Positions 23,424 to 48,278 of a stretch of 63,320 nucleotides of DNA are shown here, piece by piece. Below the pieces are notes generated by a model. That model worked only from the letters and a program-made list of their open reading frames with translations. It had not been told where the DNA came from and did not search any database. The DNA is taken from positions 1-63,320 of the IMG/VR virus record IMGVR_UViG_3300033153_011833. One strand, written 5' to 3'. A program made the translations under genes and the position numbers. The DNA is from a virus. How positions within the stretch are numbered: position 1 is the stretch's first letter; the number at the start of each line of letters is the position of its first letter.

Positions 23424-23765
23424 ATGGAAAACTACACAAAAGAAACAATACTGAAGATGACTAAACAGGAATTACATGAGGCAAGAAGAGAATTATTAAA
23501 AGGTGAAATCAATGATAATTGCTCGAACTGCTCATACTGCTCACGCTGCTCATACTGCTCATACTGCTCATACTGTTCGGACTGCTCATACTGCTCACAC
23601 TGCTCAGATTGTTCATACTGCTCAAACTGCTCGGACTGCTTAGAATGCTCAGACTGCTCAGACTGCTCGCACTCAGTTGGGCTTAAAAAGGGGCGATATT
23701 TGATTTGCAACGTGCAGTTAACAGAAGAAGAATACCAAACTAAAATTAAAGAATTGAATTTATAA
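23424..23765 (+). CDS. CSX tripeptide-repeat protein 1 (113 aa)
   Basis: The start ATG 23424 is preferred because AAGGAG lies nine bases before it. The N-terminus (MENYTKETILKMTKQELHEARREL) is helical. Residues about 36-88 are 17 consecutive tripeptides of the form X-Cys-Ser, where X is mostly Tyr, Asp, His or Asn; one unit ends in Leu. The C-terminus (SVGLKKGRYLICNVQLTEEEY...) is shared with a longer paralog at 47775..48278. Cys at every third residue could bind metal ions or form disulfides in a thin regular helix. I do not know this family. The DNA repeat is 9 bp and also leaves antisense frames open. Confidence 0.8.
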   Translation: MENYTKETILKMTKQELHEARRELLKGEINDNCSNCSYCSRCSYCSYCSYCSDCSYCSHCSDCSYCSNCSDCLECSDCSDCSHSVGLKKGRYLICNVQLTEEEYQTKIKELNL

Positions 23766-29962: not shown

Positions 29963-30835
29963 ATGGACTTACTCAAAATCTTAACATCTTTTGATATACC
30001 ATATAAAACAGAAGGACATCACCACTGTCGTGAAGGATGGATAAATATTGATTGTCCTTTTTGTGGAAAAGATACTCACAAATGGCATATGGGATATTCA
30101 ATAGAAGGAAATTATTTCAATTGTTGGCGATGTGGTCATCATCGTCTAATTGATACCCTTATGGAAATAACTGGATTATCATATGCAAAGTGCAAATCCA
30201 TTCTCAAAAACACAGAACCCACCAAAAAGAAAAAGAAAAAACCAATTCACGGTCAATATAAACCACCATTAGGAATAGGCAAACTGCTAAAAGCCCATCG
30301 TAAGTATTTACACGATAGAAATTTTAACCCCCAAGAATTAGAATCCCTTTGGAAAATAAAAGGAATAGGAATAGCAAATAGATTATCATGGAGGATTTTC
30401 ATTCCCATCATATATCATAAACAGTTAGTCAGTTGGACTACTCGGACCATTTCAAAATCAAATAATACCACTAGATACATAAGTGCTTCCCCAAAAGAAG
30501 AATCTATACCCCATAAAAACATTCTATATGGAGAGGATTTTGTTAGAAAAACAATTATCATTACGGAAGGTCCTTTTGATGTTTGGAGAATAGGACCTGG
30601 GGCTGTTGCAACTTTGGGAACCAACTACTCCAACGAACAAATGTTTAGGATGACAAAATATCCCAAAAGAATTATATGCTTTGATAATGAACCCGTTGCT
30701 CAAAAACAGGCTGAAAGGCTTTGTGCAGACTTATCCGTCTTTCCAGGGGATACCTTCAATCTTCAATTAGAAGCAAAGGACGCAGCTTCAGCCAGTATAA
30801 AGGAAATTAAAAAAATAAAAAATCTTTTAGAATAA
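29963..30835 (+). CDS. DNA primase (CHC2 zinc finger plus Toprim)
   Basis: The 290-residue protein has an N-terminal CHC2-type zinc finger (CPFCGKDTHKWHMGYSI...CWRCGHH) and a C-terminal Toprim domain with ITEGPFDVWRIG (catalytic Glu) and IICFDNEP (Asp). It lacks a helicase domain, which is supplied separately by the DnaB-like gene. It would synthesise RNA primers at the fork. It starts one base after the SNF2 gene. Confidence 0.9.
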   Translation: MDLLKILTSFDIPYKTEGHHHCREGWINIDCPFCGKDTHKWHMGYSIEGNYFNCWRCGHHRLIDTLMEITGLSYAKCKSILKNTEPTKKKKKKPIHGQYKPPLGIGKLLKAHRKYLHDRNFNPQELESLWKIKGIGIANRLSWRIFIPIIYHKQLVSWTTRTISKSNNTTRYISASPKEESIPHKNILYGEDFVRKTIIITEGPFDVWRIGPGAVATLGTNYSNEQMFRMTKYPKRIICFDNEPVAQKQAERLCADLSVFPGDTFNLQLEAKDAASASIKEIKKIKNLLE

Positions 30836-30845
30836 TTTATTTTTC

Positions 30846-30874
30846 TTGCAATTAACAAAATCCATTATTACAAT
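30846..30874 (+). promoter_or_regulatory. Promoter before the initiator gene
   Basis: TTGCAA (30846..30851), a 17-base spacer and TACAAT (30869..30874) make a plausible sigma70 promoter. The RNA would begin near 30881, just before GGTGTACAAA, and so carry the attenuator-like leader described at 30883..30983. Confidence 0.6.
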
Positions 30875-30882
30875 ACTGGAAT

Positions 30883-30983
30883 GGTGTACAAACAAAACGA
30901 AACAACTCGACAAAATAGAACCTACTGGAGACACCTCCCGGACTCCCTAGTCCTTTTGTACACCTATCTCCAGTAGGTTTTTA
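30883..30983 (+). promoter_or_regulatory. Leader RNA with competing stems (attenuator-like)
   Basis: AACCTACTGGAGA (30919..30931) pairs perfectly with TCTCCAGTAGGTT (30967..30979) and is followed by TTT, a Rho-independent terminator. Its loop holds a small GGACT/AGTCC hairpin and TTTGTACACC (30955..30964), which is perfectly complementary to GGTGTACAAA (30883..30892) at the 5' end of the message. The two long stems cross, so they form either a pseudoknot or a switch. The initiator ATG is 14 bases beyond the U-run. Confidence 0.65.
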
Positions 30984-30996
30984 AGGGATATCAAAA

Positions 30997-31698
30997 ATGA
31001 AAAATGAAAAGTCTTATTATGCCGTTATACCTGCTCCTGTCAGATATTGTCAAAACCTGTCTCCAAATGCAAAATTACTATATGGCGAAATAACAGCACT
31101 ATGTAATAAGGAAGGATATTGCTGGGCGTCCAATAATTATTTCGCCAAATTGTATGGTGTTCATACTATAACAATCAGTAGATGGATTAAGAATTTGGAG
31201 GATAATCATTTTATAATTTGTAAAATGAAAAATAAGAATAAAAGAAGAATTTATATTCATGAACCCTTAGCAAAAATGCTAAGGGGGTTTAGCAAAAATG
31301 CTAAGGGGGTTAAGCAAAAATGCTTAGGGTATAATAATAATATAACTAATAAAACAAATATATCTGTTAAAATGATTGATAAAAGATTTGCCATGAAATT
31401 ATTTAAGTTAGTACGGGCTAAAAGAAAAATAAATATCAATCATCAAAAATGGTCCTGTCATTTTGCAAAATTAAGGGTCAAATCTGGAATAAAAAAACAA
31501 AGAATTGCCAAGGTATTAAATTGGTATGAAAATCATATTGGAGAAAGATTTGTGCCTGTATCATATTCAGCCGGAAGTTTTTGCAGTAAATTTCTTAGAA
31601 TAGAAGATGCCATGAACCGATACATTGAAAATATCGAATCTGGCGAAGCTCCTCTTGTGTATAAAAAACGTATTGTAAAACATACGATTGTCGATTAA
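30997..31698 (+). CDS. Replication initiator-like protein with iterons in its gene
   Basis: The 233-residue protein has an N-terminal winged-helix/HTH (LSPNAKLLYGEITALCNKEGYCWASNNYFAKLYGVHTITISRWIKNLEDNHFI) of the type found in phage and plasmid replication initiators. The middle (residues about 90-110) is LAKMLRGFSKNAKGVKQKCLG, translated from three iterons in the DNA. The C-terminal half is basic and helical. The DnaB-like helicase follows, so this gene is the likely origin-binding protein, like lambda O. Confidence 0.78.
   Translation: MKNEKSYYAVIPAPVRYCQNLSPNAKLLYGEITALCNKEGYCWASNNYFAKLYGVHTITISRWIKNLEDNHFIICKMKNKNKRRIYIHEPLAKMLRGFSKNAKGVKQKCLGYNNNITNKTNISVKMIDKRFAMKLFKLVRAKRKININHQKWSCHFAKLRVKSGIKKQRIAKVLNWYENHIGERFVPVSYSAGSFCSKFLRIEDAMNRYIENIESGEAPLVYKKRIVKHTIVD
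31267..31329 (+). repeat. Three 22-bp iterons (candidate replication origin)
   Basis: Three copies of a 22-bp unit, core AGCAAAAATGCT, lie at 31269..31280, 31291..31302 and 31313..31324, an exact 22-base spacing. Each has an internal dyad: TTAGCA/TGCTAA in the first two and TAAGCA/TGCTTA in the third. They sit inside the initiator gene and are followed at once by an AT-rich stretch (31330..31385), just as in lambda ori. Confidence 0.85.
31330..31385. other. AT-rich stretch beside the iterons (candidate unwinding element)
   Basis: This stretch is almost all A and T (TATAATAATAATATAACTAA and onward) and lies immediately right of the three iterons. In iteron-type origins the AT-rich element is melted by the bound initiator. 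It is coding as well. Role inferred from arrangement. Confidence 0.6.
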
Positions 31699-31719: not shown

Positions 31720-33120
31720 ATGCGAATAGAGAAAAAAAACAGCAACAAAGAACGACTCATTTTAATAGGAATGATTGTTGACATAAATGTTCTTGGACGC
31801 ATCAATTCTAAATGGCATCAAAACATGTTCAAAAGCAAATGGGCTAATATTGTAGCTAAATGGTGTATCTCTTTTTATCGAAAATATGAAGAAGTGCCTA
31901 TGAATCAGATTGAAAGTTTGTTTGAATCTTGGGCTTCTGAAACTAAGGATAAGCAAATCATATTATTGGTGGAACGTTTTCTTGATTCATTATCAAAAGA
32001 ATATGAAGAGCTTCAAACAGAATCAAACAGTGATTACATTATAGATATTGCAAGTGAATACTTTAATCAAGTAAGAATAGAACGGCTTATCGAATCCCTA
32101 CAAGGAGACCTAGATAATAATGAAATAACCAAAGCCATCAATCGTACGATATCTTTCAATCAAATTGAAATGGGGGTAGGTGAAGGTATAGATGTTCTTC
32201 AAGACAAGATAGCAATAAAAGAAGCCTTAAGAAACAAAAGAAAATCCATTATAGAATTTCCAGGTGCTTTGAATAGGTTTTTGCAACACTCATTTGAACG
32301 AGATTCTTTTATAGCATTTATGGGTTCTGAAGGCCGGGGCAAGAGTTTTATTCTTCAGGAAATAGCATGGCAGGCAATGTTGCAACGAAAGAAGGTGGTT
32401 CTATTTGAGGCGGGAGATATGAGCCAAAACCAAATAATGAGGCGGTTTTTAGTGCGAGCAGCAAGGCATCCGATATTTCCTAAAACAATTGAATACCCAA
32501 AAGCCATTTTTGTAGATGGTAATGGTGAAAAAGAAATAGAGTTTGAAACAAGAAGATTCAAGGAAAAATTAGATTTTAAGATAGCTATGAAAGCTTGTGA
32601 AAGGATTATGAAAAGGAAAATCAAAAGCAAGCATTCGTATCTTAAATTATCAACCCATCCTAATTCAACCCTATCCGTAAATTCTATTCGTAGTATTTTA
32701 GAAAATTGGGAGCAGGAAAATTGGGTGCCTGATGTAATTATAATAGATTATGCCGATATTTTAGATATGTCCTACCCCGGAATGGAAGGACGTGACCGTA
32801 TAAACGAAACATGGAAGCAGTTACGAGCTTTATCACAAATTTATCATTGCCTTTTGATAACAGCCACCCAAGCCGATGCCGCCTCTTATGACTCCAATTT
32901 AATACGAAGGAAGAATTTTTCTGAAGATAAACGAAAATATGCTCATGTGACTGGTATGATAGGGATAAATCAAACGGAGGAAGAAAAAAAGCTAGGAGTT
33001 ACCAGATTAAATTGGCTCAAATTGCGAGATGGGGCATATTTTGAAACCACTTGTGTTTATTTGGTCGGTTGTTTAGACATAGCGAACCCAATGATAAAAA
33101 GTGCTTGGAAAGGGGATTGA
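31720..33120 (+). CDS. DnaB-like replicative helicase
   Basis: The 466-residue protein has an N-terminal helical domain and a RecA-type ATPase core: Walker A GSEGRGKSF (residues about 202-210), Walker B VIIIDYADI (about 343-351), and a late TATQADAAS (sensor-like) with GMIGINQTEEEKKLG. It would be the hexameric fork helicase loaded at the iteron origin. It follows the initiator by 21 bases. Confidence 0.88.
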   Translation: MRIEKKNSNKERLILIGMIVDINVLGRINSKWHQNMFKSKWANIVAKWCISFYRKYEEVPMNQIESLFESWASETKDKQIILLVERFLDSLSKEYEELQTESNSDYIIDIASEYFNQVRIERLIESLQGDLDNNEITKAINRTISFNQIEMGVGEGIDVLQDKIAIKEALRNKRKSIIEFPGALNRFLQHSFERDSFIAFMGSEGRGKSFILQEIAWQAMLQRKKVVLFEAGDMSQNQIMRRFLVRAARHPIFPKTIEYPKAIFVDGNGEKEIEFETRRFKEKLDFKIAMKACERIMKRKIKSKHSYLKLSTHPNSTLSVNSIRSILENWEQENWVPDVIIIDYADILDMSYPGMEGRDRINETWKQLRALSQIYHCLLITATQADAASYDSNLIRRKNFSEDKRKYAHVTGMIGINQTEEEKKLGVTRLNWLKLRDGAYFETTCVYLVGCLDIANPMIKSAWKGD

Positions 33121-33351: not shown

Positions 33352-33804
33352 ATGAAAGATGAAATCAAAAGAGAACTTAAAAAAATTAAAAAACAACACG
33401 GTGGATTGTTAAGAGCTCGTGATGTCGTTAACTATGCAAGGGATAGTAAAACAGCTTTACACAATTGTTTTGAATGGGACGACAAAATAGCTGGTGAAGC
33501 ATATCGCATTCACCAGGCGAGAAGGATAATAAATGTACATGTCGAAATGATGCCAAATGCAACAGAGCCTATGAAAGTTTTTGTTAGCCTAAAAAAAGAC
33601 AGGTGCAAACCTGGAGGGGGTTATCGAGAGATGAAACGTATTATAAAGGTAAAGCCCTGGAGAGAGGCTTTGTTTGAACAGGCGTTAGATGAGTTAATAT
33701 CAATAAAAAAACGATACAAACAAATAAGAGAAATTGTAATTGCTGTAGAACCTGCTATCGATGCAATTATTAAAGCCAAAAAACAAGAAAGGAAAGTTGG
33801 GTAA
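33352..33804 (+). CDS. Conserved phage protein, unknown (150 aa)
   Basis: A 150-residue helical protein with LLRARDVVNYARDSKTALHNCFEWDDKIAGEAYRIHQARRII, a pattern I have seen in many phages next to recombination genes and often to the gene that follows here. There is no catalytic motif. Its stop lies at the beginning of a G-rich pentamer array. Function unknown. Confidence 0.7.
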   Translation: MKDEIKRELKKIKKQHGGLLRARDVVNYARDSKTALHNCFEWDDKIAGEAYRIHQARRIINVHVEMMPNATEPMKVFVSLKKDRCKPGGGYREMKRIIKVKPWREALFEQALDELISIKKRYKQIREIVIAVEPAIDAIIKAKKQERKVG

Positions 33805-33918
33805 GGCAGGTGTGGTACGGTAAGGTTGGGTGGGGTCTGGTCCGGTACGGTGTGGTCAGGTAAGGCAGGTATGGTGCGGTGAGGTCGGGTCTGGTGGGGT
33901 GGGGTGGGGTAAGGCAGG
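33802..33918. repeat. TNNGG pentamer array 1
   Basis: The 117 bases are made only of TNNGG pentamers and three TAAGGCAGG spacers: spacer at 33802..33810, ten pentamers to 33860, spacer at 33861..33869, eight pentamers to 33909, and spacer at 33910..33918. The NN varies (GT, AC, AA, TG, GG, CT, CC, CA, AT, GC, GA, CG). GG every five bases allows two-quartet G-quadruplexes. It begins at the stop of the upstream gene and ends before the next ribosome site. Confidence 0.9.
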
Positions 33919-33949
33919 TAAATTCTAACATTTTGGAAAGAACAGGAAA

Positions 33950-34612
33950 ATGGCAAAGACAAAAAAGAAAAAAGCAGAAAAGGTTGATGGGGTTCATCTT
34001 ACAATAGCTCCCCCAAATATGGAAACGGGACGATTTCTTATTAGGGGGACATCGCCTTTGGTTATGAATAAATTCTCACACAAAGCAAAAGTGGAGATGA
34101 TGGAAACACAAAAGGCAGGAAGCACAGCAAAAAAAGGAAAGAAAAGGGCCCCAAAAGATTTTAAGACTATGTGTGAAGCAGCAAAACATATATCTACTCA
34201 AGGATGGTGCGGTATTCCTGCTCCGGCTTTCCGCAATGCAATGGTTTCCGCTTGTAAGATTGTGGGGTTTGCTATGACCCGTGCAAAATTATCTGTGTTT
34301 ATAGAAGCAGATGGTTTTGATAAAGATGATGGCACTCCCCTTGTAAAAATCACAAAAGGCAAATCCAAACGATTGGACCTTCCTGTACGAATAGCAATGG
34401 GGTCAACCGATATTCATTCTCGTCCAATGTGGGAACCTGGTTGGGAAGCTCTTGTTCGTATAAGATATGATGCTGACCAATTCACATTGGAGGATATTTC
34501 AAATCTCCTTGTTCGTGTGGGTATGCAAACAGGAATACTTGAAGGACGTCCTGACAGCAAATCCTCTTGTGGGATGGGTTGGGGTTTGTTCGATGTTTGC
34601 GGAACCAAATAA
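33950..34612 (+). CDS. Conserved phage protein flanked by two G-rich arrays (220 aa)
   Basis: The 220-residue protein has a Lys-rich start and then an ordered alpha/beta domain: IRGTSPLVMNKFSHKAKVEMME, GIPAPAFRNAMVSACKIVGFAMTRAKL, EADGFDKDDGTPLVKITKG, ISNLLVRVGMQTGILEGRPDSKSSCGMGWG. I recognise this as a widespread phage family of unknown function. The Gly-rich end is reminiscent of RAMP-type RNA-binding folds, but that is only a resemblance. GGAAAG precedes the ATG. TNNGG arrays lie on both sides. Confidence 0.75.
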   Translation: MAKTKKKKAEKVDGVHLTIAPPNMETGRFLIRGTSPLVMNKFSHKAKVEMMETQKAGSTAKKGKKRAPKDFKTMCEAAKHISTQGWCGIPAPAFRNAMVSACKIVGFAMTRAKLSVFIEADGFDKDDGTPLVKITKGKSKRLDLPVRIAMGSTDIHSRPMWEPGWEALVRIRYDADQFTLEDISNLLVRVGMQTGILEGRPDSKSSCGMGWGLFDVCGTK

Positions 34613-34616
34613 TATG

Positions 34617-34675
34617 GCAGGTGAGATTAGGTATGGTAAGGTCGGGTAGGGTCGGGTAAGGCAAGGCAAGGCAGG
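34617..34675. repeat. TNNGG pentamer array 2
   Basis: After GGCAGG come TGAGA, TTAGG, TATGG, TAAGG, TCGGG, TAGGG, TCGGG, TAAGG, then CAAGG twice and CAGG. It ends in the same AAGGCAGGTAAA as array 1. It begins two bases after the stop of the flanked gene. The match in unit, ending and position shows the two arrays are related. The rest of the gap to 34776 holds only AT-rich sequence and the next ribosome site. Confidence 0.88.
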
Positions 34676-34776
34676 TAAAGCTATTTTCAAAAAAGATTTC
34701 AGATTTTTGGTAAAAATCACAATAATAAATAGGAGAATAATCCCCACAACAAAATTTTATATGGAAAGGGCAAAAC

Positions 34777-36658: not shown

Positions 36659-37672
36659 ATGAAGATAAATAGAGAAAAACTTTTAGGTCAACTGGAATCT
36701 ATTCTACCAGGTTTATCCACAAGAGAAATAATAGAACAATCATCCTGTTTTGTTTTTCAGAACAAAGTGGTGATGACTTATAATGATGAGGTGGCCTGCA
36801 CCCAAGAATCATGCCTCCCTGTTACAGGAGCCATACCAGCTACGCCCCTTATATCCATTCTTCGCAAATTGAAGGAAGAAGAATTGGAAATAACAATCGA
36901 TAAAAAAGAATTGTTGATTAAAGGTAATCGAAAAAAAGCAGGCATCAGAATGGACGCTGATATTTTACTTCCAATCAATTTGGTGGAAAAACCTAAAAAA
37001 TGGAAAGACCTGCCCGACGATTTTGCAAATGCTATAACTATTGTCAAACAGTGTGCAGGAAAAGATGAAACCAAGTTTTCACTGACCTGTGTACGACTCA
37101 CGCCCAAATGGATAGAAGCTTGTGATGGTTACCAAGCAGCCAGATATACAATAAAAATGGAAGTAGAAAAACCCACTCTTGTAAGAAAAGAATCTATAAA
37201 ATACATAGAAGAATTGGGCGTGTCAGAATTTAGTGAAACAAAGAATTGGATTCATTTTAGAAATTCTTCCGGACTTATTTTGAGTTGTCGTCGATGGGTT
37301 GAGGATTTTCCAAAATTATCAAAGCTATTACAAATCACAGGAACCCCCACCAAGTTTCCAAAAGGATTAACAGAAGCAGTAGAAAAAGCCGAGATTTTCT
37401 CAGCAGAAAATGTAGAAGATAACCAAATAGAAATAAACATCAAACCCAACAAGCTTCAAATTATTGGTAGAGGCGTTTCTGGATATTATCAAGAAATAAA
37501 GGACATAAAATACAAAGGAAAGCCTTTGTCATTTAGAGTTGCTGCCTGCCTATTTGCCAACTTAATCCGTCACCACAACACCTGTGAAGTAACCAAAGAT
37601 AGATTAAAAATAGCCGTTGGGAAATACACCTACGTTACTGTTCTTCAAGCAATTATCCCAGGAGAAAAATAA
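36659..37672 (+). CDS. Sliding clamp-like (DnaN/beta-type) protein
   Basis: The ATG at 36659 follows AAGGAAAAG. The 337 residues show the three-domain repeated beta-alpha pattern of bacterial beta clamps (about 110 residues each): LLISILRKLKEEELEITIDKKELLIKG in domain one, AITIVKQCAGKDETKFSLTCVRLTPK in domain two, and IEINIKPNKLQIIGRGVSGYYQEIKDI in domain three, ending VTVLQAIIPG. Sequence is diverged, so the call rests on repeated pattern and on the UDG-polymerase and clamp-loader genes nearby. It would tether the polymerase. Confidence 0.7.
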   Translation: MKINREKLLGQLESILPGLSTREIIEQSSCFVFQNKVVMTYNDEVACTQESCLPVTGAIPATPLISILRKLKEEELEITIDKKELLIKGNRKKAGIRMDADILLPINLVEKPKKWKDLPDDFANAITIVKQCAGKDETKFSLTCVRLTPKWIEACDGYQAARYTIKMEVEKPTLVRKESIKYIEELGVSEFSETKNWIHFRNSSGLILSCRRWVEDFPKLSKLLQITGTPTKFPKGLTEAVEKAEIFSAENVEDNQIEINIKPNKLQIIGRGVSGYYQEIKDIKYKGKPLSFRVAACLFANLIRHHNTCEVTKDRLKIAVGKYTYVTVLQAIIPGEK

Positions 37673-38871
37673 TGAAAAAGGGGTTCTTCTCATCATCCAG
37701 TTTTCAAACCAAGGAAAAGATTCTCACAACCACTCGATGCGGTTTATGTGGACGTTATAAAAATTGTAAATCCCCTAAAATGCCCCCTACAGGCAAAGGC
37801 AGAAAAAAGATATTATTTATAGCTGAAGCTCCGGGTGCAGAAGAAGATAGGAAAAATATGCAGTTGGTTGGTCCATCCGGTCAATTTCTAAGGAAACACC
37901 TAAAAAAAATGGAGGTTGATTTGGATAAGGATTGTTGGAAAACAAATGCCGTTATATGCTTTAAGAAAAATAACGAAACTCCTAATAAAAAGGTAATAGA
38001 AGCTTGTCGGCCAAATCTAATGAGAACGATAAAACAGTATCAACCAAATGTAATTGTGCTCCTTGGTAAAATAGCAATAAGTTCTTTGATATCTGCTTTG
38101 TGGAAAACAGATGAAGGAGTTGTAAACAAATGGGCGGGATACTCTATACCTTGTCAAAGTTTGAATGCTTGGATTATTTGTACCTACCATCCTGCTTATT
38201 TACTAAGAAAAAATGATAAGGTCCTAAATAGATTTTTTGAAAATCATTTAAGGACTGCCCTACATAAATCTAAATCCAAACCTTGGAAAAAAATTCCTAA
38301 TTATAACAATCAAATTGATATTATAATGAACCCATTGCAAGCTGTAAAAGAAATTGAGAAAATAAAAGATGGTCCAATTGCTTTTGATTATGAAACTAAT
38401 TGTTTGAAACCTGAAGGAAAAGGCACCAAATTGGTTTCTTGTTCGATATGCTGGAAAGGGAAAAAGACAATAGCTTTTCCAATGGAAAAAGGAGTTGTTA
38501 CAGCGGTAAGCCGGTTGCTAAAATCGCCTATTCCTAAAATAGCAAGTAATATGAAGTTTGAAGATAGATGGACAAGAACGAAACTGGGACACCCTGTTAG
38601 AAATTGGTTGTGGGACACAATGATAGCCGCTCATGTTATAGACAACTCTCCTGGTGTAACAAGTATTAAATTTCAATCTTTTGTTTTTCTAGGAGTAGAA
38701 TCTTATAATGACGTTGTCAAACCTTTTTTTGAATCAGGCAAAGACAGATTCAATCGAATACACGAAATAGATTTGAATGATTTGTTATTATACAACGGAT
38801 TGGATAGTCTATTGGAATATAAGGTGGCAATGAAACAAATGCATGTTATGAAAGGATTAAAAAATGAGTAA
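37672..38871 (+). CDS. Uracil-DNA glycosylase fused to 3'-5' exonuclease
   Basis: The 399-residue protein is a fusion. Residues about 20-200 are a family 4-type uracil-DNA glycosylase: a CxxC start (C23, C26, C32) of iron-sulphur type, IAEAPGAEED (50-58), VGPSGQFLRK, and CTYHPAYLLRK (170-180). Residues about 225-395 are a DnaQ-like exonuclease: FDYETN (ExoI, 238-243), ASNMKFEDRW (ExoII) and YNGLDSLLEYK (ExoIII). It corresponds to the N-terminus of phage UDG-PolA fusions, but here the polymerase is a separate gene at 40013 after three other genes. It would proofread and remove uracil at the fork. Confidence 0.88.
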   Translation: MKKGFFSSSSFQTKEKILTTTRCGLCGRYKNCKSPKMPPTGKGRKKILFIAEAPGAEEDRKNMQLVGPSGQFLRKHLKKMEVDLDKDCWKTNAVICFKKNNETPNKKVIEACRPNLMRTIKQYQPNVIVLLGKIAISSLISALWKTDEGVVNKWAGYSIPCQSLNAWIICTYHPAYLLRKNDKVLNRFFENHLRTALHKSKSKPWKKIPNYNNQIDIIMNPLQAVKEIEKIKDGPIAFDYETNCLKPEGKGTKLVSCSICWKGKKTIAFPMEKGVVTAVSRLLKSPIPKIASNMKFEDRWTRTKLGHPVRNWLWDTMIAAHVIDNSPGVTSIKFQSFVFLGVESYNDVVKPFFESGKDRFNRIHEIDLNDLLLYNGLDSLLEYKVAMKQMHVMKGLKNE

Positions 38872-39869: not shown

Positions 39870-40029
39870 TTTAGAAAAAGAAAAGTTTGAAGAATATAAG
39901 AAAATGGCTGAGGAACACGCAAATTTTTTATGTGAAAAAATTTTCAAGCCTGCTTTTATTATGGCATTTGTTCATGGAGCAAAACATATGTATGATGAAT
40001 TAAAGGATAAAGATGAAACCAATAACTAA
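39862..40029 (+). CDS. Small helical protein (55 aa)
   Basis: The ATG overlaps the end of the MazG-like gene, and the last codons overlap the polymerase start at 40013. The 55 residues (MADLEKEKFEEYKKMAEEHA...) form a helix and a short hydrophobic stretch (AFIMAFVHGAKHMY). No family is known. Overlaps on both sides support translation. Confidence 0.55.
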   Translation: MADLEKEKFEEYKKMAEEHANFLCEKIFKPAFIMAFVHGAKHMYDELKDKDETNN

Positions 40030-41392
40030 CAAAGGTTATCAATTATTACATAATGGAACAATAGCTCTGTCCCAAGTAGAAGCTAACGGCATCAGGGTAG
40101 ATACTAATTATCTTAATCGAGCAATCAATCATACCAAACAACAAATTGAAAAAATAACAATCAAAATGAAACAAGACAGGATGTTCAAATTATGGCAAAA
40201 AAAGTATGGAACCAAAACTAATATGGGCTCAAGAAACCAATTGGGCACTATACTTTTTTCGATAATGAAATATCCATGCGAAGCTCATACAGATTCTGGA
40301 AGACCTAAAACAGATGAAACTGCTTTGGGTAAAGTTAATTTGCCGTTTGTTAGAAATTTCCTTAAATTGGAACGGCTCAAAAAAACGAATTCTACGTATT
40401 TACAAGGAATTCTTCGTGAAACGACAAATGGTTTTTTACACCCTTTTTTCAATCTTAATTTTGCCCGTACCTATCGGAGTAGCAGTGACCATCCTAATTT
40501 TCAAAACATGCCCATACGGAATCCCCAAACGGCAAAATTAGTTAGAAGAGCTTTTATTTCCAGACCTGGCCATCAAATTGTGGAAACTGATTACAATGGG
40601 GCAGAGATTCGTTGTGCAGTTTGTTATCATAAAGACCCAAGAATGATTTCTTATATTAAGGATGGAAAAAAAGATTTACATAGAGATATGGCGGGGCAGT
40701 GTTTTTATTTGCCTAAGAATCAAATAACAAAAGATGTTCGATTTTGTGGAAAAAATATGTTTGTATTTCCCCAATTTTATGGAGATTACTATCTTCGTTG
40801 TGCCGAGAATTTATGGAAAGCTATCGGTCAAATGAAACTCAAAAGAAAAGATGGAATTGATTTATATCAGCATCTGAAAAACAAAGGAATTTATAAATTA
40901 GGGAAATGTAACCCAAAAGAATCCCCAGTTGCAGGAACATTTGAACACCATTTACAAAAAGTAGAAGATATGTTTTGGAATGATTGGTTTAAGGTATATC
41001 AGCAATGGAAAGAAAAATGGTACACTGATTATGTCAATCGAGGTTATTTTGATACCTTAACAGGGTTTAGAATTGAAGGGTTTTATAATCGAAAAGAAGT
41101 AATCAATTATCCTGTGCAGGGTTCAGCTTTTCATTGGCTACTGTGGTCCTTGATTCGGATTCAAAAATTACTAAAAAAGTATAAAATGAAAACCTTAATA
41201 ATCGGGCAGATTCACGATAGTATTGTGGCTGATGTATTCAAAAAGGAATTGAAAACCTATTTAGAAATAGTGAATCAAGTAATGACCATTGATATAAGAA
41301 AACATTGGAAATGGATAATTGTTCCGCTATCAATAGAGAACGAAGCATCGCCCGTAAATGGAAACTGGTATGAGAAAAAATTAGTAAATTAA
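40013..41392 (+). CDS. Family A DNA polymerase (polymerase domain only)
   Basis: The 459-residue protein has the polymerase motifs in order: a start like the PolA thumb, the segment ARTYRSSSDHPNFQNMP (residues 151-167), motif A VETDYNGAEIR (190-200, Asp 193), motif B KDVRFCGKNMFVFPQFYG (240-257) and motif C IGQIHDSIVA (398-407). There is no exonuclease domain; that is in the UDG fusion at 37672. It is thus a two-gene split of a polymerase usually made as one chain. The start overlaps the small helical gene. Confidence 0.9.
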   Translation: MKPITNKGYQLLHNGTIALSQVEANGIRVDTNYLNRAINHTKQQIEKITIKMKQDRMFKLWQKKYGTKTNMGSRNQLGTILFSIMKYPCEAHTDSGRPKTDETALGKVNLPFVRNFLKLERLKKTNSTYLQGILRETTNGFLHPFFNLNFARTYRSSSDHPNFQNMPIRNPQTAKLVRRAFISRPGHQIVETDYNGAEIRCAVCYHKDPRMISYIKDGKKDLHRDMAGQCFYLPKNQITKDVRFCGKNMFVFPQFYGDYYLRCAENLWKAIGQMKLKRKDGIDLYQHLKNKGIYKLGKCNPKESPVAGTFEHHLQKVEDMFWNDWFKVYQQWKEKWYTDYVNRGYFDTLTGFRIEGFYNRKEVINYPVQGSAFHWLLWSLIRIQKLLKKYKMKTLIIGQIHDSIVADVFKKELKTYLEIVNQVMTIDIRKHWKWIIVPLSIENEASPVNGNWYEKKLVN

Positions 41393-47774: not shown

Positions 47775-48278
47775 ATGAAAAAATACACGAAAGAAGCAAT
47801 ACTAAAGATGACTAATCGGGAATTACATAAAGTAAGAGGAATGTTATTAAAAGGTAGAGCCAATGCTGACTGCTCACACTGCTCATACTGCTCATACTGC
47901 TTGAATTGTTCACACTGTTCAGAATGCTTGGGCTGCTCGGATTGCTCAGATTGCTTGGACTGCTCGGATTGCTTGGGCTGCTCATATTGCTCAGATTGCT
48001 TGGACTGCTCGAATTGCTCAGATTGCTCACACTGCTCAGATTGTTCAAACTGCTCATACTGCTCACACTGCTCAGATTGTTCATACTGCTCATACTGCTC
48101 ACACTGCTCAGATTGTTCATACTGCTCATACTGTTCGGACTGTTTGGACTGTTTGGATTGCTCAAACTCAGTTGGGCTTAAAAAGAGGCAATATATGATT
48201 TGCAACGTGCAGTTAACAAAAGAAGAATATGAAACTAAAATTAAAGAATTGAGTTTAGAAGCGATAAACAATGAATAA
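47775..48278 (+). CDS. CSX tripeptide-repeat protein 2 (167 aa)
   Basis: This longer paralog of 23424..23765 has the same helical start (MKKYTKEAILKMTNRELHKVRGML), then 33 X-Cys-Ser (or X-Cys-Leu) tripeptides over residues about 36-134, and the same end (SVGLKKRQYMICNVQLTKEEYETKIKEL). The ends are much alike, but repeat number nearly doubles, so the repeat tract expands and shrinks. X is mostly Asp, Tyr, His or Asn. Cys density would allow a long metal- or disulfide-rich rod. It lies downstream of the recombinase. Confidence 0.8.
   Translation: MKKYTKEAILKMTNRELHKVRGMLLKGRANADCSHCSYCSYCLNCSHCSECLGCSDCSDCLDCSDCLGCSYCSDCLDCSNCSDCSHCSDCSNCSYCSHCSDCSYCSYCSHCSDCSYCSYCSDCLDCLDCSNSVGLKKRQYMICNVQLTKEEYETKIKELSLEAINNE

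Follow-up and report, generated by a model that had tools for sequence, protein, structure and literature searches.

The gene at positions 30997–31698 of this phage genome contains a short tandem array of repeats followed by an AT-rich tract, which raises the question of whether a replication origin lies within the coding sequence of the very protein that would act on it. The initial annotation had answered in the affirmative, placing an origin on the plan of lambda O/ori inside the initiator gene. The window, i.e., the whole stretch of DNA analyzed, is a viral record of 63,320 bases. Both of its ends share an exact 114-base repeat, which indicates that the genome is complete, and the terminase is nearest to that of Croceibacter phage P2559Y (39% identity). 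The features of the locus are as follows:

29963–30835, + strand: primase-like protein (Toprim, zinc ribbon) adjoining the putative origin upstream; PF13155, E = 1e-4; phrog_47 DNA primase, E = 1e-38
30836–30996, no strand assigned: intergenic region marking the sign change of third-codon GC skew among same-strand genes, with the skew minimum (31078) just downstream
30997–31698, + strand: initiator gene (233 aa) with an N-terminal winged-helix domain of the HTH_36 type, a disordered linker specified by the putative origin, and a helical C-terminal part
31165–31203, + strand: recognition-helix codons (residues 57–69; I58, S61, R62), from the structural model and the top mutual information with iteron bases
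31267–31288, + strand: iteron 1; dyad TTAGCAAAAATGCTAA at 31267–31282, extending to CCCTTAGCA/TGCTAAGGG
31289–31310, + strand: iteron 2; dyad at 31289–31304
31311–31332, + strand: iteron 3; dyad TAAGCAAAAATGCTTA at 31311–31326, with a compensating change in both arms
31330–31385, no strand assigned: AT-rich tract of the TAATAATAATA type, presumed unwinding element, from the sequence and the tract in relatives
31720–33120, + strand: DnaB-like replicative helicase, presumably a client of the initiator; PF03796 (DnaB_C), E = 1.4e-7; phrog_19, E = 6e-37

The 233-aa protein showed a match to HTH_36 (PF13730) at E = 5e-15 over residues 20–72, with 55.4 bits against a curated cut-off of 25, and matched PHROG 19658, 270, and 428, annotated as ‘replication initiation protein’, with E values from 1e-26 to 2e-17. 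The HTH_36 match substantiates the earlier claim that the gene hosting the iterons encodes an initiator-type HTH, and the DnaB_C and phrog_19 matches do the same for the DnaB-like helicase claimed downstream. In the AlphaFold model, pLDDT was 90–98 for residues about 11–90, which form a confident winged helix with the recognition helix at residues 57–69 and the wing at 73–87. It fell below 50 for residues 105–126, a stretch disordered in the model and coded by iteron 3 together with most of the AT tract. Searches of the PDB by sequence (phmmer and profile) retrieved no initiator, and fold comparison alone gave one. The best structural matches were the RepA_N initiators (pSK41, pTZ2162) and PLE RepA: the four RepA_N plasmid initiator entries 4PQL (Z 10.2), 4PT7 (Z 10.0), 5KBJ (Z 9.3; a Rep–DNA complex), and 4PTA (Z 8.8) aligned over 94–100 residues, as against Z 8–9.5 for unrelated winged helices. 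The list of folds was also rich in MarR/Fur/CRP types and generic winged helices, and with Z of 8–10 the RepA_N initiators appear to top other winged-helix proteins only moderately.

The helicase gene begins 21 bases 3′ of the initiator gene, and further 3′ are a sliding-clamp-like protein, a split family A polymerase, and a clamp loader. The polymerase is distributed over two genes (37672–38871 and 40013–41392), the first of which fuses a uracil-DNA-glycosylase-superfamily domain with a 3′–5′ exonuclease.

The iteron unit is 22 nt long, with starts at 31267, 31289, and 31311 (spacing 22 + 22). Iterons 1 and 2 are identical over all 22 nt, and iteron 3 shows 82% identity. Each carries a 16-bp A-centred dyad, TTAGCA-AAAA-TGCTAA in two copies and TAAGCA-AAAA-TGCTTA in one, the third dyad being preserved by compensation (TTAGCA/TGCTAA to TAAGCA/TGCTTA). 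The 63,320-base window holds three exact copies of a 14-mer core, all within the array at 31267–31332; elsewhere in the window, the search for this core gave only matches with 2 mismatches, at about chance level. This is in agreement with the initial annotation, which had described three 22-bp iterons with inner dyads and a core repeated three times at exact 22-base steps. In order-1 random genes of the same composition, any 12-mer was present three times in 16 of 2000 trials. The starts of the iterons fall at codon offsets 0, 1, and 2. As 22 is not a multiple of three and the copies lie at three codon offsets, selection is on the DNA and not on the peptide; the iterons are not a protein repeat.

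The AT-rich tract that the initial annotation placed after the iterons is present, with about 88% A+T, and its limits were refined to 31330–31385. In the relatives described below, an AATAATACA tract likewise lies behind the iterons at a fixed distance from the last one: among the 113 genes with a match, 61 have AATAATAC or a close variant starting at a distance of 12 nt from the last axis. The ratio of the Asn codons AAT:AAC was 587:26 in the tract of relatives vs. 1456:656 over the remainder of these genes. This synonymous bias shows that selection acts on the tract as DNA, as expected of an unwinding element. The reading frame of the AATAATAC motif is near-perfect (110 of 113), which leaves room for a possible peptide-level role as well. 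The three-base pattern of the motif presumably recalls the DnaA-trio.

The cumulative GC-skew minimum of the whole record was found at 31078. The skew at third codon positions was evaluated over 31 plus-strand genes between 23.8 and 54.5 kb; as all the tested genes are on the + strand, gene direction is not the cause of the change. The change point fell exactly between the genes 29963–30835 and 30997–31698 (LLR 27.5), and none of 1000 gene-order shuffles matched it. The GC-skew check proposed in the initial annotation thus located the origin-like switch at the initiator gene and not elsewhere. Near 55 kb the strand skew switches again, at a point where gene direction also changes; if the genome is circular or circularised, this would be a possible candidate for its replication terminus.

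A tblastn search found 106 phage records, and several hundred loci were obtained from alignment-based scans of viral and genome contigs. The search for related loci with a single protein query gave no match, and an alignment query was required. Direct-repeat pairs (at least 14 of 20 positions identical) were present just behind the HTH domain in 120 of 126 non-redundant genes, nearly all of them at a spacing of 21–24 nt. These first 126 genes contained 217 A-centred dyads against 71.6 expected from synonymous-codon shuffles (n = 200, largest 90), and 14 were found in an equally long C-terminal control stretch. In the extended set, iterons occupied the same place in 154 of 173 non-redundant relatives, with axis steps mainly of 22, 23, and 24 nt. 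The dyad scan, which had no register freedom, missed sites in 22 of the 126 genes, and the later finder failed in 19 of the 173.

The two arms of a dyad matched better when both came from one phage than when they were paired across phages (3.87 vs. 3.18 of 6, sd 0.07), a test free of dyad-selection bias since the sites were chosen on direct repeats. At arm positions d4–d8 of the extended-set sites, Watson–Crick pairs numbered 105–122 of 154 vs. 44–74 expected, counts biased upward by a site selection that favours dyads, and G–T pairs were depleted (2–6 vs. 10–16 expected). The excess of Watson–Crick pairs along with the depletion of G–T pairs is characteristic of a protein site in double-stranded DNA and not of a hairpin. 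Members of the initiator family were also observed in contigs titled Bacteroidota, spirochaetes, Planctomycetes, Borrarchaeum MAG, and Saccharibacteria, some of the MAG contigs being possibly misbinned. Judged by these matches, the family is far wider than Firmicutes phages.

Mutual information was calculated for all combinations of an HTH-domain column with an arm base. In the extended set, coupling was strongest for 62–d4 (z = 16.6), 58–d6 (z = 14.8), 61–d8 (z = 10.3), and 59–d4 (z = 10.3). These four residues all fall within roughly one turn of the predicted recognition helix, and the largest z outside helix 55–66 was 5.8. In 70 sequences outside the discovery set, which do not overlap with the first set yet are phylogenetically not independent of it, 62–d4 (z = 6.1) and 58–d6 (z = 5.1) persisted, and 61–d8 was absent from the top columns. 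The influence of shared ancestry was reduced by comparing nearest neighbours outside the helix (median 68% identity). Neighbour pairs sharing residue 62 had an equal d4 in 33 of 43 cases, as against 20 of 83 for pairs differing in residue 62 (odds ratio 10.4, p = 1.5e-8), and the control columns 38 and 10 were not significant in this test.

With respect to individual residues, R62 was accompanied by C at d4 in 59 of 77 sequences and K62 by A in 22 of 26. At d6, G was found with E58 (20/22) and R58 (19/20), A with V58 (15/21) and I58 (8/11), and T with T58 (10/18), and S61 went with T at d8 (101/125). R62, I58, and S61 of the window protein match the C, A, and T of its own arm, as in most relatives with these residues. 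An Arg facing the G of a C–G pair and a Val or Ile near the thymine methyl are chemically sensible contacts. Leave-one-out prediction was correct for d4 in 112 of 149 cases vs. a baseline of 64, and for d6 in 87 vs. 65; a hand check of five plasmid loci gave agreement at d4 in three. It is probable, from these sequence comparisons, that HTH_36 phage initiators obey a readable code, statistical in nature, by which residue 62 specifies d4 (R for C; K, N, T, or S for A), residue 58 specifies d6 (E or R for G, V or I for A, T for T), and residue 61 specifies d8 (S for T). If so, the protein sequence would allow partial prediction of the letters of an origin dyad, and origin and protein would change in step, as both share one gene. 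The covariation of helix and iteron is the strongest computational evidence that the initiator binds the repeats in its own gene. A full-text literature search, with most subscription journals outside its scope, found no report of such a recognition code, which is provisionally regarded as the new part of this analysis.

The arrangement itself is not unique to this phage and is standard for HTH_36 phage initiators and RepA_N plasmids. The HTH_36 initiators of Lactobacillus phages c5 and PL-1/J-1, Staphylococcus phages 77 and SpT252, Cellulophaga phage phi39:1, and the Rep of plasmid pPR9 have the same N-terminal domain and share intragenic A-centred dyad iterons (21–24 bp) followed by the AT-rich AATAATACA tract, and at several of these loci a helicase or a helicase loader adjoins. 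In the staphylococcal plasmid pPR9, the module drives autonomous replication (PMC5703833). The present phage differs from these relatives in its arm TTAGCA/TGCTAA, which is peculiar to it in the non-redundant set among those listed, in the C-terminal part of its initiator, and in having its own DnaB-like helicase, primase, polymerase, clamp, and clamp loader. In RepA_N plasmids, the Rep boxes are central in rep, and semi-palindromic iterons converge on a poly-A tract (PMC5703833, PMC7145576); in pSK41, the boxes in rep are the target of the N-terminal domain, and the origin sequence encodes a linker (PMC5703833). This plan of boxes in rep, with inverted repeats on a poly-A tract, is common to the window, which differs in being a phage replication module. 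RepA_N (PF06970) was not among the Pfam matches of the window protein at E ≤ 1.

The lambda origin shares A-tract-centred dyad iterons of 20–24 bp in the initiator gene just behind the DNA-binding domain, an AT-rich tract on the same side, and a helicase-recruiting function next door. However, lambda has four iterons and the window three, and the lambda neighbour P is a loader delivering host DnaB, whereas the neighbour in the window is a DnaB-like helicase itself. Phage_rep_O (PF04492), for which lambda O scores 5.7e-36, gave no match to the window protein at E ≤ 1, and hhalign of the window protein with lambda O gave a probability of 0.1, i.e., no match; a remote link is present only via shared matches to PHROG 678 and 391. 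By its sequence, the window initiator is not a member of the lambda O family, and the earlier remark that the two are unrelated in sequence is right as far as Pfam and profile comparison go, the two PHROG matches being remotely shared. In lambda, the O protein protects the iterons and unwinding needs the AT-rich tract, and two iterons beside this tract suffice in vitro (PMC7466680). ORF13 of TP901-1 and Rep2009 of Tuc2009 are replisome organizers that bind origin repeats in their own genes (PMC8965321). The match of TP901-1 Rep to HTH_36 is sub-threshold, the scan used detected no A-centred dyads in the TP901-1 and Tuc2009 Rep genes, and both differ from the window in their repeats and C-terminal domains.

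It is very likely that 31267–31385 is the theta origin of this phage, bound by a dimeric winged-helix initiator encoded around it. The skew change point, the arrangement in 154 of 173 relatives with its DNA-level conservation, and the covariation of helix residues with iteron bases support this reading, and equally the lambda O/ori plan proposed initially. On the precedents of lambda (PMC7466680) and pSK41 (PMC5703833), we infer that every 16-bp dyad would be bound by the N-terminal winged helix, most likely in dimeric form, with each arm receiving one recognition helix and the A-tract in between being bent. On successive sites two helical turns apart, three such dimers could assemble along the same face of the DNA into a nucleoprotein complex, which would open the adjoining AT-rich tract. 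The C-terminal part of the initiator may bring the neighbouring DnaB-like helicase onto the single strands, and forks would depart bidirectionally. The origin DNA would encode a disordered linker and hence be free to evolve as DNA.

The skew switch could also be a recombination boundary rather than a replication signature, leaving the origin to be argued from anatomy alone. Phages are mosaic and their modules may differ in history, and AT3 skew drops near the 31-kb switch too, less sharply. The skew minimum nevertheless falls at an initiator/iteron gene identified on independent grounds, and the opposite sign persists on either side in most of the 31 genes; such a boundary is considered unlikely. 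That the iterons are an operator, through which the initiator represses or road-blocks its own transcription with replication starting elsewhere, is improbable. Sites 270–330 bp inside the gene, with no extra copy near the putative promoter, are at odds with an operator, as are the conserved AT tract accompanying the arrays, the location of the skew switch at the initiator gene, and the precedents of lambda, TP901-1, Tuc2009, and pSK41/pPR9, which are origins. On the other hand, dyad-binding winged-helix proteins are often repressors, in keeping with the MarR/Fur/CRP types in the fold list, and autoregulation could coexist with origin function.

The single-stranded DNA folded into good hairpins at all three dyads (z −6.3 vs. 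shuffles), as would suit an attenuator or sites of primosome assembly or priming acting as RNA or single-stranded DNA. G–T pairs between the arms are nevertheless below chance and Watson–Crick pairs far above it, the arm bases covary with helix residues, and no U-run follows the dyad hairpins. A hairpin function is therefore very improbable, and its RNA form was rejected on the depletion of G–T pairs. A search of Rfam gave no known RNA family overlapping the iterons. That the array is a repeat in the protein, or a tandem duplication that is neutral and has no function, is hardly credible, even though tandem repeats arise readily and Tandem Repeats Finder reported 15 rows in the window: the place and step of the repeats are kept in 154 of 173 distant relatives, the arm change is compensating, the modelled linker is disordered, and the covariation contradicts it. 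The protein-repeat form was rejected on the three codon frames.

Intragenic origins are already known from lambda, TP901-1, Tuc2009, and RepA_N plasmids, and origin function of an HTH_36 module from pPR9. What the origin reading adds is scale, together with a mechanism that can be read off the sequence. Since a single architecture is shared by phages and prophages of Firmicutes, Bacteroidota, spirochaetes, and others, many uncultured phages could be assigned an origin at base resolution. The covariation would amount to a partial protein-to-DNA code for the joint change in specificity of initiator and origin within one gene, a long-standing question posed by lambdoid type specificity and by plasmid incompatibility.

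The leader of the initiator gene (30846–30990) contains a promoter-like TTGCAA-17-TACAAT; the promoter scan gave 18 matches vs. 15.7 expected, which is not above chance. It also harbors the elements GGTGTACAAA (30883–30892), AACCTACTGGAGA (30919–30931), TTTGTACACC (30955–30964), and TCTCCAGTAGGTT (30967–30979), after which a T-run adjoins the ribosome site. The a-b-a′-b′ order of these elements allows a possible pseudoknot or attenuator, comparable to the antisense-controlled leaders of plasmid rep genes; the folding z of the leader was −2.2. On the minus strand, a promoter-like CTGACA-16-CATAAT (31043–31016) directed from the initiator gene into the leader could yield a counter-transcript, such matches being at about chance level.

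Other repeats were observed in the window. A 9-nt unit (ACTGCTCAG type) forms two distinct arrays, at 23520–23668 and 47868–48151, the former encoding Cys-rich NCSYCSDCS repeats. The gene-free spacers 33804–33950 and 34612–34750 show long Pro/Thr-rich spurious frames on the opposite strand, and the first of them contains the tandem repeat GGTATGGTGCGGTGAGGTCG at 33868–33911.
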